DNA of 64,000 bases from Bacteroidota bacterium (lineage in GTDB: Bacteria > Bacteroidota > JABWAT01), in contig JAFLBE010000001.1 in assembly GCA_017303995.1 (NCBI GenBank), positions 62,001-126,000 of the forward strand, read 5' to 3'. Under the pieces are notes generated by a model. That model saw nothing but the letters and a program-made list of their open reading frames with translations. It had not been told where the DNA came from and did not search any database. Positions 14,027-62,923 of this stretch are shown in pieces; position 1 is the first letter of the stretch, and each line of letters begins with the position of its first letter. A program made the position numbers and the translations under genes.

Positions 14027-14126
14027 AGAAAAAATACTGGATTCCCGCCTTCGCGGGAATGACAATCTCGTGTTTTTTTGCAATTCTGAGCAGTTGTCAT
14101 CCCGGACTTGATCCGGGATCCATGAC
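14027..14126. repeat. composite palindromic repeat, copy 1 (about 100 bp)
   Basis: Two hairpin units in fixed order. The first is ATTCCCGCCTTCGCGGGAAT (14041-14060), preceded by AATACTGG. A roughly 34-bp spacer containing GTGTTTTTTTG follows, then TGTCATCCCGGACTTGATCC onward (14095-14126). An almost identical arrangement is at 62785-62882, so the pair behaves as one unit. Both halves also occur alone elsewhere in the window. ORFs read through it (WIPAFAGMT, CHPGLDPGS) are artefacts. Confidence 0.75.
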
Positions 14127-14279
14127 TTTTTCACCAACATCATTTCTTTTTTTGACCCGCGCCTTAGCGTGCACATTTTCCCATTCATTATCCCAACTAC
14201 TTTTCCTTTCAATGGATTAAAAAAGGGCTTTTATATTGTGCAGAAAATAATTATATAATTATAATATATAGCATAAAAA

Positions 14280-39894: not shown

Positions 39895-40217
39895 AAAACC
39901 CCCAGAATTATGAATAAATCAAGGGGAAAAACTACGGATTTTTTTTCGGATGGATGATTAAGATCAGATTAGAATATCTGTTTATCCAAATAAAGAAATA
40001 GATGTCATCCCGGACTTGATCTGGGATCCATGCCGTTTTCTTCATCCAGGATATCCAGATTTCAGGGACTAGAGGATAGTATTATAATTTATCGCATTAA
40101 GACGGGCACTGAGTCCCTCGATACTATTTTTCACTTTGTGAAAAATCACTCGGGATGACACGCTCAGTGCCTGCCTTAATCACTTACCACGTACAACGTA
40201 CCACGTAACACCGGCAT
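39895..40217. repeat. 323-bp gene-free region with REP units
   Basis: 40003-40033 is a TGTCATCCCGGACTTGATCT-type unit. 40105-40171 is a long imperfect hairpin: GGCACTGAG (40105-40113) pairs with CTCAGTGCC (40163-40171), and inside it ATTTTTCAC (40126-40134) pairs with GTGAAAAAT (40138-40146). 40186-40212 holds ACCACGTACAACGTACCACG-type short tandem repeat. 39939-39958 has a T8 run preceding CGGATGG. No gene is supported. Confidence 0.6.
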
Positions 40218-55245: not shown

Positions 55246-57133
55246 ATCCTTCAGCAATCTCAGTCAGTTCCATCCATCTCATCATTGCCGTTTCCAGCCC
55301 AGTTGTGAGTTCACCGATCCGTTTCGAGGCATCCATGAGTTTCTGATAATCAGCACCGTGACTGTTCAGAAGGGAAGTGAGATCAGCTTTTTCCTGCTCC
55401 AGTTTCTCAATGTCTTTGCCAATCTGCTCCAGTTCCCGTTGCTCTTTGTAAGACAGTTTCCGCTTGTTTTCGATTTTGGGTTTGGAATTAGGGGCAGACT
55501 TTAATTCAATTTTTCGGTTTGAAGCTTCCGTCTTTTCAGCCTGAACTGCATTTTCTTTTCTTTCAAGATAAGCTGAATAATTTCCCGGATATTGCTTAAT
55601 AATTCCGCCTTCTTCAAAGGCATAAATAAAACTAACAGTACGGTCAAGAAAAGACCGGTCGTGGGAAACCACGATCAGACATCCACCAAAATTATCGAGA
55701 TAAGATTCCAAAGCTGAGAGTGTATCCAGGTCAAAGTCATTGGTTGGCTCATCAAGTAAAAGCACATTCGGATTGTGCATCAGGATTCTGAGCAGGGAAA
55801 GTCGCCGGCGTTCACCACCAGAAAGGGTTTTTACTTTTGAAAAATGCTGATTGGGTGAAAAAAGAAACTGATCGAGCAAATCTTTGGGCGTGAGATACCG
55901 TTCACGTCCGATCCCCACATCAATAAATTCTGCAATCTCTTTCAAGGAACCGATAACCGATTGTTCCTCAGACAAATCGTTAATTTCCTGGCGGAAATAT
56001 CCGATTTTTACTGTTGAACCAATTTTAAGTGTACCGGTATCTGGTTCAATTTGTCCGCCCAAAACTCTCAGAAACGTTGTTTTCCCGCTTCCGTTCGGAC
56101 CAATAATTCCGAACCGGTCACCCGGAGCAGTGGTGATGGTAAAATTTTTAAATAGTTCTTTTCCGCCAAGTGATTTACTGATGTTGACGGCATCAATTAC
56201 CCGGGCACCCAAAAAGGCATTTCCCAGTTCAATCTTGATGTTTTTTTCTTCCTGCGGCTTTGGTGCCGATTGCATATCAGAAATCCAGTCAATCCGGCTT
56301 TTCTGTTTGGTACGGCGGGCACGTGCGCCTCTGGCAAGCCAGGCAAGTTCTGTTCTTAATTTATTTCTAAGGTGATCTTCAGCCGATTGTTCAGCTTCGG
56401 CAACAGCTGTTTTCCTTTCGAGAAACTGTTCATAATTTCCCGGATAATGGATGATTTTCTGGCGGTCAAGTTCAAGGATTTTATTCGTTACGGCATCGAG
56501 AAAATACCGGTCGTGGGTGATGAGTAAAAGTGCTCTGGGAGATTGTTGGAGATAATCCTGCAGCCATTGAACTGAATCAGCATCGAGGTGATTGGTTGGT
56601 TCATCGAGAATCAATAAATCAGGATCAGAAAGAAGTACTTTTGCAAGGGCGACCCGTTTCCTTTGCCCGCCGGAAAGAGTTGTTACATCGGCATCCAGCT
56701 GATCCATTCCCAATTTGTGAAGCATTTTGGTTGCTTCGGTTTCTAGATTCCAGCCATTCAGATGATCAATATCATGAAGCAGGGATTCCAGCCGTTTCTG
56801 ATCAGGAGAATGAGTTTCAATGAGTTGATGATATTCCATCAGCTGGGAAAAAACTTCAGGCCGGGCTTTTAAAACTGTGGTAAGAACCGATTCTTTTTCT
56901 TTGAATTCGGGTAACTGAGGCAAATATTCAAATCTGACCGTTTTATTCCACGCAACAGATCCCAGATCGGGTTCTTCATCACCGGCAAGAATTCTGAGCA
57001 AAGTGGTTTTTCCGGCACCGTTCCGGCCAATGATTCCGATTCGTTCACCATCTTCCATACCAAAAGAAATATTCTCAAACAAAAGTCTGAGGTGGTAAGA
57101 TTTAGAGAGCTGGTAGGTGGTAAAGAGGGTCAT
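55244..57133 (-). CDS. ABC-F family ATPase (Uup-like)
   Basis: Cytoplasmic, non-transport ABC protein acting on ribosomes, 629 aa (Escherichia coli Uup is 635). Two ATP cassettes are present. First: GIIGRNGAGKTTLLRILAG (Walker A), TLSGGQRKRVALAKVLLSDP, LLILDEPTNHLDADSVQWLQ. Second: GIIGPNGSGKTTFLRVLGG, TLSGGERRRLSLLRILMHNP, LLLDEPTNDFDLDTLSALES. Between them lies the ABC-F linker (RTELAWLARGARARRTKQKS). A C-terminal coiled-coil domain (LSYKEQRELEQIGKDIEKLE) distinguishes Uup from EttA. ABC-F proteins resolve stalled or wrongly structured ribosomes. Resistance function is not suggested. It ends at the convergent terminator. Confidence 0.92.
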   Translation of the reverse strand: MTLFTTYQLSKSYHLRLLFENISFGMEDGERIGIIGRNGAGKTTLLRILAGDEEPDLGSVAWNKTVRFEYLPQLPEFKEKESVLTTVLKARPEVFSQLMEYHQLIETHSPDQKRLESLLHDIDHLNGWNLETEATKMLHKLGMDQLDADVTTLSGGQRKRVALAKVLLSDPDLLILDEPTNHLDADSVQWLQDYLQQSPRALLLITHDRYFLDAVTNKILELDRQKIIHYPGNYEQFLERKTAVAEAEQSAEDHLRNKLRTELAWLARGARARRTKQKSRIDWISDMQSAPKPQEEKNIKIELGNAFLGARVIDAVNISKSLGGKELFKNFTITTAPGDRFGIIGPNGSGKTTFLRVLGGQIEPDTGTLKIGSTVKIGYFRQEINDLSEEQSVIGSLKEIAEFIDVGIGRERYLTPKDLLDQFLFSPNQHFSKVKTLSGGERRRLSLLRILMHNPNVLLLDEPTNDFDLDTLSALESYLDNFGGCLIVVSHDRSFLDRTVSFIYAFEEGGIIKQYPGNYSAYLERKENAVQAEKTEASNRKIELKSAPNSKPKIENKRKLSYKEQRELEQIGKDIEKLEQEKADLTSLLNSHGADYQKLMDASKRIGELTTGLETAMMRWMELTEIAEG

Positions 57134-57165
57134 TTTTGCTTTTATTATGGACGGTGAAAATCGAG

Positions 57166-57382
57166 TTTGGGCTAAAGCCCAGGATTGTTTGAGTTGATTT
57201 TATCCGTCAGCTAAAGCAGACGGCAATGAAATTATAAAAGATCTGTTTCAAAAAGATTCTTAATAGTTTGGGCAATTGCTGTTTTTTAGATTAAGGAAGA
57301 TCCAATTCCTCAGTTTTTATTGCCGTCTGCTTTAGCTGACGGAAAATGAAATCCAAAAAAAATACTGGGCTTTAGCCCAAAT
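57166..57382. repeat. 217-bp transposase-flanking repeat, copy A (uninterrupted)
   Basis: Starts TTTGGGCTAAAGCCC and ends GGGCTTTAGCCCAAAT, the outer ends being reverse complements. Inside, CCGTCAGCTAAAGCAGACGG (57204-57223) and its exact reverse complement CCGTCTGCTTTAGCTGACGG (57323-57342) repeat the pattern. The unit is thus two REP-like arms facing each other. The transposase stop codon (57372-57374) falls inside its right end. Confidence 0.85.
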
Positions 57383-57830
57383 CTGATTTGTTTCCTTGCT
57401 CAGCAGAAATCAGCCAATTGTACTTTTTATTGAACTCTTCAATTTCCATTGAAAATGATTTTTTCTTATGGTGATCTTCCTGATTCCTGATATAATTCTG
57501 AACTGATTCTATTTGTGATTCACTAATGGAAACTGCAAAATAATCATCTTGCCAGGCAAATTTACCGGCAATAATTTTTTCTTTATTTATCCAAAATGCA
57601 GATTCACCCTTTATTAACTGAGCAACTTGCGAAATAGTTTGATTTTTATTTAATGATATCAAACAGTGAATATGTTCGAGGTGCCCGTTTATTTCAGTAA
57701 GAAAAATTCCCTTTTCCCGGCAATTAACTTGAATGTGATTAATTACAAGGGGTCGGATTTCTTTTGTAAAGAAAGGATACCGGTCTTTTGTTGAAAAAAC
57801 AAGATGAACCCAAATCCGGACAAAAGACAT
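57372..57830 (-). CDS. IS200-like / REP-associated (HUH, single-Tyr) transposase
   Basis: A 152-aa Y1 transposase. IWVHLVFSTKDRYPFF is the family's opening strand. GHLEHIHCLISLN holds the HUH metal motif. The catalytic Tyr is in ESQIESVQNYIRNQEDHH. Full length for IS200 TnpA (about 150 aa). It cuts and joins single-stranded DNA at hairpin-bearing ends. It is flanked by two direct 217-bp copies of a palindromic repeat and its own stop lies in one of them, as in REP-associated transposases (RAYTs) that act on neighbouring REP sequences. It appears intact. No TnpB is present. Confidence 0.9.
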   Translation of the reverse strand: MSFVRIWVHLVFSTKDRYPFFTKEIRPLVINHIQVNCREKGIFLTEINGHLEHIHCLISLNKNQTISQVAQLIKGESAFWINKEKIIAGKFAWQDDYFAVSISESQIESVQNYIRNQEDHHKKKSFSMEIEEFNKKYNWLISAEQGNKSDLG

Positions 57831-57840
57831 AAAATACCCT

Positions 57841-58169
57841 TTTGGGCTAAAGCCCAGGATTGTTTGAGTTGATTTTGTCCGTCAGCTAAAGCAGACGGCA
57901 ATGAAATTATAAAAGATCTGTTTCAAAAAGATTCTTAATAGTTTGGGCAATTGCTGTTTTTTATTACTCCGGTGGATAAATAGGAATCACGAAAATCCAA
58001 ATTTGTCAGTCTGAGTAATCCTGCTTGCAGGATTATATCGAAGACTTTAAACGCTATTTAACCACCGGATTAATAGATTAAGGAAGATCCAATTCCTCAG
58101 TTTTTATTGCCGTCTGCTTTAGCTGACGGAAAATGAAATCCAAAAAAAATACTGGGCTTTAGCCCAAAT
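57841..58169. repeat. 217-bp transposase-flanking repeat, copy B (split by an insertion)
   Basis: Same order and nearly the same bases as copy A (57166-57382), in direct orientation, but with 112 extra bp (110-bp element plus one TA) after GCTGTTTTTTA. 329 bp minus 112 gives exactly 217. It starts 10 bp upstream of the transposase ATG. One change seen is TTTTGTCC for TTTTATCC. Confidence 0.85.
57964..58073. mobile_element. 110-bp TA-flanked MITE-like insertion
   Basis: Ends TTACTCCGGTGGATAAATAG and, inverted, TTAATCCGGTGGTTAAATAG: 18 of 20 bases match. It is flanked by TA at 57962-57963 and 58074-58075, while the empty site in copy A has a single TA (TTTTTTAGATT). This is the signature of a TA-targeting (IS630/Tc1-mariner-like) non-autonomous element. 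An inner perfect palindrome TAATCCTGC-TT-GCAGGATTA is at 58016-58035. No ORF. Confidence 0.82.
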
Positions 58170-58199
58170 GTATTTCAATTAAAATTCAACCTTTAAAAT

Positions 58200-59099
58200 T
58201 CAGATGGAAGCTTCCTGTTTCCATCTGGCCATTGGGTGTTTTGCACAGTCATCAGAACAGGCACCATTATGTTCAGGTTCACAGGTTTCACAAACAATAA
58301 TCTGTTTGTTGCAGGCGGCATTGGTACAATTAATATACCGGTCTGAAGGTTTTTCACAATACCGGCAGGTTGAAATGACAGTATCTTCAAGCTGATTCAC
58401 CGGTACAGAAATCCGTCCGTCAAAAACGTAACATTTTCCTTCCCAGTTTTTACCGCCGGTTTTTTGGCCATAAGTGATAATGCCGCCGTGAAGTTGGTAA
58501 ACATGTTTGAATCCGGCCTGAAGCAAAACTCCCGTTGCTTTTTCACAGCGGATCCCACCAGTGCAATAGGCCAGGATTTTCTTATCCTTCAGATTTTCGA
58601 TGGATTTTACATAGTCAGGGAAGTCCCTGAAATTGTCAATATCGGGAGTAATGGCATTTTTAAACCGGCCGATTTCCGATTCATAATTATTTCGGGTATC
58701 GAGAATCACCACATCGGGGTCATTTTCCATCATCTCAAGAAATTCCTGAGGTTCAAGATAGGTGCCGGTAAGTTCATTTGGGTTCAGATCGGGTGCACCC
58801 AGATGAACAATTTCATCTTTCGCACGGCAATGCATTTTTTTGAATGGCTGGCGATCCCAAAATTCAGTTTTAAATTCAATTCCGGCAAATCGGGAATCGG
58901 CTGTAAGATGAGCCTTATAGGTTTCAGTTTGTTCAGCAGAACCGGCAACGGTACCGTTAATGCCCTCACCCGCAACAATGATCCTGCCGGTCAGGCCAAG
59001 GTTTTTGCAAAATTCAAGATGCTCTTTTGCGAACTCCTGTGGGTTTTCAAGGGTTGTATATTTATAATAAAGGAGAATGACAATCTGATCCATCTGCAC
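58200..59099 (-). CDS. trhO: tRNA uridine(34) hydroxylase TrhO
   Basis: Rhodanese-fold enzyme, 299 aa, that hydroxylates U34 of tRNAs to ho5U using O2. It has the N-terminal acylphosphatase-like domain (GLTGRIIVAGEGINGTVAGS) and the rhodanese domain (DVVILDTRNNYESEIGRFKN) with active Cys in LAYCTGGIRCEKATGVL. A C-terminal zinc-binding region is rich in Cys (STCRYCEKPSDRYINCTNAA, CETCEPEHNGACSDDC). Length and order match bacterial TrhO/YceA. A TATCTTTG -7 box lies about 25 bp upstream (59129-59122) with a short leader. Confidence 0.95.
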   Translation of the reverse strand: MQMDQIVILLYYKYTTLENPQEFAKEHLEFCKNLGLTGRIIVAGEGINGTVAGSAEQTETYKAHLTADSRFAGIEFKTEFWDRQPFKKMHCRAKDEIVHLGAPDLNPNELTGTYLEPQEFLEMMENDPDVVILDTRNNYESEIGRFKNAITPDIDNFRDFPDYVKSIENLKDKKILAYCTGGIRCEKATGVLLQAGFKHVYQLHGGIITYGQKTGGKNWEGKCYVFDGRISVPVNQLEDTVISTCRYCEKPSDRYINCTNAACNKQIIVCETCEPEHNGACSDDCAKHPMARWKQEASI

Positions 59100-62679: not shown

Positions 62680-62784
62680 CTTCACTCTTTTTGATGATTG
62701 AATCAAGTTTGAAAGTTAGCCAAATCATGAAAAAGAAAAAAGAAATAAGGAAGGAAAGTCATTGTAGGTGGCTGCCAATTGCAG

Positions 62785-62882
62785 GAAAAATACTGGATTC
62801 CCGCCTTCGCGGGAATGACAATGTCGGTGTTTTTTGTCAACCTAAAACGTTGTCATCCCGGACTTGATCCGGGATCCATGAC
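62785..62882. repeat. composite palindromic repeat, copy 2 (about 98 bp)
   Basis: Same order as 14027-14126: AATACTGG, ATTCCCGCCTTCGCGGGAAT (62796-62815), spacer with GTCGGTGTTTTTTGTCAA, then TGTCATCCCGGACTTGATCC onward (62851-62882). It sits between the epimerase gene and the possible small RNA unit. Confidence 0.75.
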
Positions 62883-62923
62883 ACCCATATATCCCAGATC
62901 TAACTCAGGTAGGTTTTTCAGGC

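Follow-up and report, generated by a model that had tools for sequence, protein, structure and literature searches.

The locus and its 110-bp insert

The window, by which we mean the whole 64,000-nucleotide stretch of DNA analysed here, contains two copies (A and B) of a 217-bp repeat on either side of a gene for an IS200-type Y1 transposase of 152 amino acids on the minus strand (PF01797, E=1.6e-27; Table 1). The gene passes the NCBIfam IS200/IS605 model NF033573 (68.9 bits, cut-off 55) and fails the model for REP-associated tyrosine transposases, NF047646 (24.8 bits, cut-off 80). Once the insert and one TA are discounted, a single position of 217 separates the repeat copies. Copy A is uninterrupted (57166-57382), and copy B is split by a 110-bp insert into the halves 57841-57963 and 58074-58169, so that the window holds one empty and one filled copy of the same site, as a preliminary description of this DNA had claimed.

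Table 1. Features of the repeat and its insert (window coordinates).
Feature	Position	Strand	Basis
217-bp repeat, empty copy (A), itself a quasi-palindrome	57166..57382	+	repeat comparison
Y1 transposase gene (IS200-type), flanked by the repeat copies; distinct from the proposed helper	57372..57830	-	PF01797
217-bp repeat, filled copy (B), with the MITE after position 57963	57841..58169	+	repeat comparison
TA target-site copy, left	57962..57963	.	single TA in empty sites
MITE (non-autonomous element), 110 bp	57964..58073	+	empty sites in copy A and in G002
Left terminal inverted repeat TTACTCCGGTGGATAAATAG	57964..57983	+	18/20 against right end
Internal hairpin after TGTC (CTGAGTAATCC..GGATTATATCGAAG), of the type also dispersed outside MITEs	58008..58046	+	fold, alignment, pattern search
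Right terminal inverted repeat TTAATCCGGTGGTTAAATAG, minus-strand reading	58054..58073	-	18/20 against left end
TA target-site copy, right	58074..58075	.	single TA in empty sites

The limits of the insert given in the preliminary description (57964-58073) proved exact on re-checking, as did the match at 18 of 20 positions between its terminal inverted repeats (TIRs), TTACTCCGGTGGATAAATAG and TTAATCCGGTGGTTAAATAG. TIR-like matches within 3 mismatches were absent from 100 dinucleotide shuffles of the sequence. The earlier claims of a duplicated TA and of a gene-less insert also stand: TA lies on both sides, compared with a single TA in the empty sites, and no open reading frame of at least 80 amino acids starts inside the 110 bp. 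The insert is predicted to fold with -36.1 kcal/mol (z=-5.8 against shuffles), far more stably than shuffled sequence. An Rfam scan of positions 56900-58400 gave nothing close to the gathering score and a promoter scan gave nothing above chance; terminator-like sites are located in the host repeat and none in the MITE. No effect of the insertion on a neighbouring gene was shown.

The host repeat is a nested palindrome (GGGCTAAAGCCC, CCGTCAGCTAAAGCAGACGG). Segments of it, about 20-70 bp long, are scattered through the genome at many positions, but a scan around the other Y1 genes of the three genomes detected neither palindrome.

Empty sites and age of the insertion

The window's own genome (G000) was compared with that of a sibling species of the same genus (G002) and with two further genomes (G001 and G003). 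At the orthologous locus of G002 (contig C29), the Y1 gene and both repeat copies are in place, with no MITE and a single TA; the alignment ends at GTTTTT and restarts at TAGATTAA, a gap that corresponds precisely to the MITE plus one TA. In G001, the two neighbouring genes adjoin and the joined outer flanks match continuously at 69%, with no transposase and no repeats. Since G001 has neither transposase nor repeats and G002 has both but no MITE, the gain of the Y1 locus, or its loss in G001, preceded the arrival of the MITE. Within the Y1 gene itself, 272 bp (window 57406-57677) are identical between G000 and G002, with flanks several percent apart, which could reflect gene conversion, transfer or strong constraint.

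The preliminary description had taken the nesting to mean that the insert is younger than the repeat duplication, a claim now backed by the orthologous empty site and which can be sharpened to a tighter date. The duplication occupies one and the same position in the two species and is therefore older than their split. Against the single difference between copies A and B in G000, the G002 copies differ at 16 of the 217 positions (insert and one TA removed), and the two species differ at 12 positions between A copies and at 9 between B copies. The near-identity of the G000 copies thus suggests that they were homogenised after the split. Because positions that tell the G002 copies apart are found both left and right of the point of insertion, the simplest order of events puts the MITE after this homogenisation. 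The window insertion would then have taken place in the G000 lineage, after both the split from G002 and the homogenisation of the repeat.

An alternative history starts from an old insert in both repeat copies, followed by precise loss from copy A in G000 and from both copies in G002. Although such a site might in principle be restored by IS630-type excision or by recombination, three precise losses would be needed, together with a homogenisation in G000 that spread neither state. Moreover, excision of IS630/Tc1-type elements usually leaves a footprint, whereas every empty copy of the site shows a clean single TA. We therefore regard this history as very unlikely.

Flanks were also joined computationally at nine sites and searched for in the other genomes. 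A precise empty locus was recovered for the window site. Three others (G2_C6, G2_C11 and G0_C13) match continuously in another genome, with imprecise alignments near the junction and a poor alignment for C13; G0_C69, G0_C79, G2_C21, G2_C31 and the site of the IS element described below were uninformative.

An IS630-family element with matching ends

Contig C18 of G002, which in the public collection is JAIUNL010000006.1 from a Bacteroidetes MAG, carries an intact IS630-family element of 1110 bp with TA on both sides, an open reading frame of 344 amino acids and the ends TTACCACGGCGGATAAATAG and TTACTCCGGCGGATAAATAC. Its product matches the NCBIfam IS630 model NF033545 (E=4e-70) and contains Pfam DDE_3 and helix-turn-helix domains. 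In G000, contigs C67 (gene start), C41 and C83 (gene end) stop inside this element, each end being identical to that of G002 over 125 of 125 bp. A DDE_3 search returned one hit in G002 and none in G000, in which the middle of the element is unassembled, nor in G001 and G003, which hold neither the element nor such ends. A short-read assembly would be expected to miss the middle of an element present in several copies; as that middle is absent and no transposase domain was found, we infer, rather than observe, an intact helper in G000.

The left TIR of the window MITE differs from the right end of the IS630 element at 2 of 20 positions and from its left end at 3 of 20; the right TIR differs from the IS630 ends at 4-5 of 20. 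The preliminary description had predicted an IS630-like helper with the same ends elsewhere, and such an element is present intact in G002 and with both ends in G000. Thus both a transposase with matching ends and further copies of the MITE (see below) exist, the two things whose absence had been named as fatal to that proposal.

A search of the contig collection with the transposase found 2 loci. Diverged relatives with 40-53% amino acid identity occur in 12 of 394 genomes of the phylum (G002 included), and one relative at 59% identity lies in a Proteobacteria MAG. The ends of these relatives begin with TTA(A/C)TCC(G/A)GC, TTAAGCCGGC, TTA(A/C)TTCAG or TTAACCCGGC, adjoining TA; among relatives at 43-59% amino acid identity, they are of the TTA(A/C)TCCGGC or TTAACCCGGC type. 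They come from an automatic search that delimited ends for 9 of 21 IS630 loci, several of which are copies in one genome and one of which is L105; for the other 12 loci, including L214 of G002 (truncated at a contig end), none was found within the limits of the search. The outer part of the MITE end is thus a hallmark of this IS630 lineage. Two genomes hold several copies of related IS630 elements, G172 (four: L215, L226, L229 and L231) and G102 (five: L222, L227, L230, L232 and L233).

Other copies of the MITE

The search for other copies that the preliminary description had advised found them in both the window's genome and G002. In its own genome, the element matched further copies at 92, 83 and 75% identity (one as two pieces), together with weaker ones; with 92% as the highest value, none of them can be recognised as the source of the window MITE. 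The TIR pattern, with at most 3 mismatches, occurs at 11 places in G000, 11 in G002 and none in G001 or G003, and a reversed control pattern at none in all four genomes. Paired ends were present in 13 of 24 loci inspected, two of them being the same element, which leaves 12 two-ended elements in G000 and G002; the remaining 11 loci (decayed, one-ended or unrelated) were left out of the counts. The 12 elements measure 83-171 bp, with a main class of seven at exactly 110 bp. TA abuts 20 of their 24 ends, and only 8 of the 12 have TA on both sides. Two pairs are orthologous between G000 and G002 (C117=C26 and C104=C18), so that the elements represent 10 independent sites, not 12, and a binomial P computed on them overstates their independence; these two insertions, common to both species, must be old; one of them exists as 96-bp and 156-bp alleles that differ within the hairpin region.

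MITE DNA was detected in 2 of 60 genomes of the wider phylum, G000 and G002 included, and plasmids and phages gave no match. A covariance-model census (E <= 0.1) returned 34 matches in G000, 42 in G002, 2 in G001 and 1 in G003; since the weak ones are mostly free hairpins, it was not used for copy counts. At L069 (G000:C24:93065), several hairpins of this type stand in a row after a one-ended MITE-like element.

The divergence of the other copies, several of which are decayed, could indicate an immobile relic spread only by recombination or assembly error. This we consider remote: the difference between the orthologs is exactly bounded by TA, and the other copies sit in unrelated flanks. Mis-assembly is itself unlikely, given that the exact stretches common to the repeat copies (86 and 96 bp) are shorter than the contig-end overlaps of about 126 bp.

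The internal hairpin

The centre of the MITE forms a hairpin, TGTCAGTCTGAGTAATCC-TGCTTGCA-GGATTATATCGAAGACT. Across seven aligned copies of 110 bp, 94.6% of helix cells are paired and three pairs are changed on both sides. The corresponding pattern, CTGAGTRATC...GATNNTATCGAAG, was located at 11 places in G000, 14 in G002 and one in G001, and G003 has none. At 9 of these 26 places, at least one IS630-type end lies within 80 bp at no more than 6 mismatches (L159 being borderline). The other 17 have none, so the hairpin is an independent repeat, which the MITE carries. TGTC or CGTC precedes it at 24 of 26 places.

An origin of the MITE by internal deletion of the IS630 element was considered and rejected, as similarity between the two ends at about 20 bp per end. 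With blastn, the best matches of the 12 elements to the IS630 element are between their ends, over about 16-28 bp, and interior matches are short and at or near chance (best E 0.022). The interior thus seems to have been acquired from the dispersed TGTC-tagged hairpin repeat and not to be a remnant of IS630. More tentatively, a TGTC-tagged palindrome may have been captured between IS630 ends and spread as MITE cargo, and some free hairpins might be former MITEs stripped of their ends, or else the free hairpins might have supplied the material for the MITE; we hold this to be possible, though rather unlikely. If it were true, IS630 activity could scatter palindromic repeats, even into a repeat belonging to an unrelated Y1 transposase, and would offer a testable route for the spread of palindromic repeats without a dedicated transposase.

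Its position within a repeat that flanks a Y1 transposase, and its palindromic hairpin, could make the insert a REP/REPIN-type element of that IS200-like system. However, IS200-type insertion makes no target duplication, and here TA is duplicated and the 20-bp inverted ends match an IS630 element. Furthermore, no such hairpin lies near any of the other 12 Y1 genes of the three genomes or near the G002 ortholog, the sole match among the 14 loci being the window MITE. We give this interpretation a negligible probability. The same scan of 14 loci led us to reject the hairpin as a REP of another Y1 transposase, the pattern being near no other Y1 gene. The Y1 enzyme is likewise an unlikely helper for the MITE, its mechanism being unrelated to that of IS630.

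Two further observations concern palindromes. A free hairpin at orthologous places in G000 (L197, contig C36) and G001 (L198, contig C2) is letter-for-letter identical, with different flanks. In the window, palindromes of the form TGTCATCCCGG...CCGGGATCCA at 14027-14132, 40000-40040 and 62783-62888 resemble published CGTC/TGTC-tagged repeats.

Proposed mobilization by an IS630-family transposase

Taken together, the matching ends, the TA duplication, the several copies, the empty sites and the IS630 element itself, with such ends and the element both missing from G001 and G003, point to the 110-bp insert as a MITE mobilised in trans by the transposase of the 1.11-kb IS630-family element with the same ends, a reading to which we assign a probability of about 0.93. 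The transposase would bind the ends of about 20 bp, excise the MITE and insert it at a TA, which would be duplicated. Of the IS630/mariner-type cut-and-paste movement proposed in the preliminary description, the IS630 assignment is supported by the matching ends and the TA duplication; the cut-and-paste mode, like the action of the transposase on the MITE and the intact helper copy in G000, is deduced from sequence comparison.

The element represents a new MITE family of a known kind, presumably moved by an IS630 transposase. Among the open-licence full texts searched, we found no paper combining MITE, IS630 and Bacteroidota, and none containing the literal sequence of the MITE end. A MITE is seldom accompanied by its probable helper element, by empty sites of both the paralogous and the orthologous kind, and by a homogenised repeat that gives it a relative date.

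Comparison with known systems

Palindromic repeats tagged with CGTC or TGTC are described as lacking a dedicated transposase and as having a stem of 8-9 bp and a loop of 4-5 nt (PMC3733652). TGTC likewise precedes the window hairpin, and most free hairpins begin their pairing with AT; the stem of the window hairpin, however, is longer and bulged and its inner loops are variable, and for these reasons it does not fit that definition as the source words it.

Two other systems can be likened to the window MITE by their descriptions. The cyanobacterial MITE Nezha was assigned to an ISNpu3-like helper by similar ends (PMC3049150); the window MITE is likewise assigned to an IS by end similarity, although family and host differ. 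Correia/NEMIS elements of Neisseria have TA termini, a target duplication and two length classes, of about 107 and 155 bp, that differ by an internal segment. The window family shares the TA ends and, with 83-171 bp and a main class of 110 bp, a variable length; unlike it, Correia elements have no autonomous partner named in the accounts consulted.

Among described systems, RUP of Streptococcus pneumoniae with IS630-Spn1 comes closest. According to the accounts cited here, RUP is about 107 bp long, gene-less and tightly folded, targets TA, and is present in about 108-110 copies per genome; its TIRs resemble those of IS630-Spn1 in the same genome, and movement in trans was proposed (PMC3049150, PMC2229807). 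RUPs have been described within or close to IS elements, but PMC3049150 itself doubts this association in a fuller genome. The window MITE differs in sequence and host phylum, in having about a dozen recognisable copies in two genomes, and in its interior, since those accounts report no dispersed hairpin within RUP. In line with RUP, however, it is short, gene-less and folded, has IS630-like ends and a TA target, and lies inside a repeat beside another transposase.
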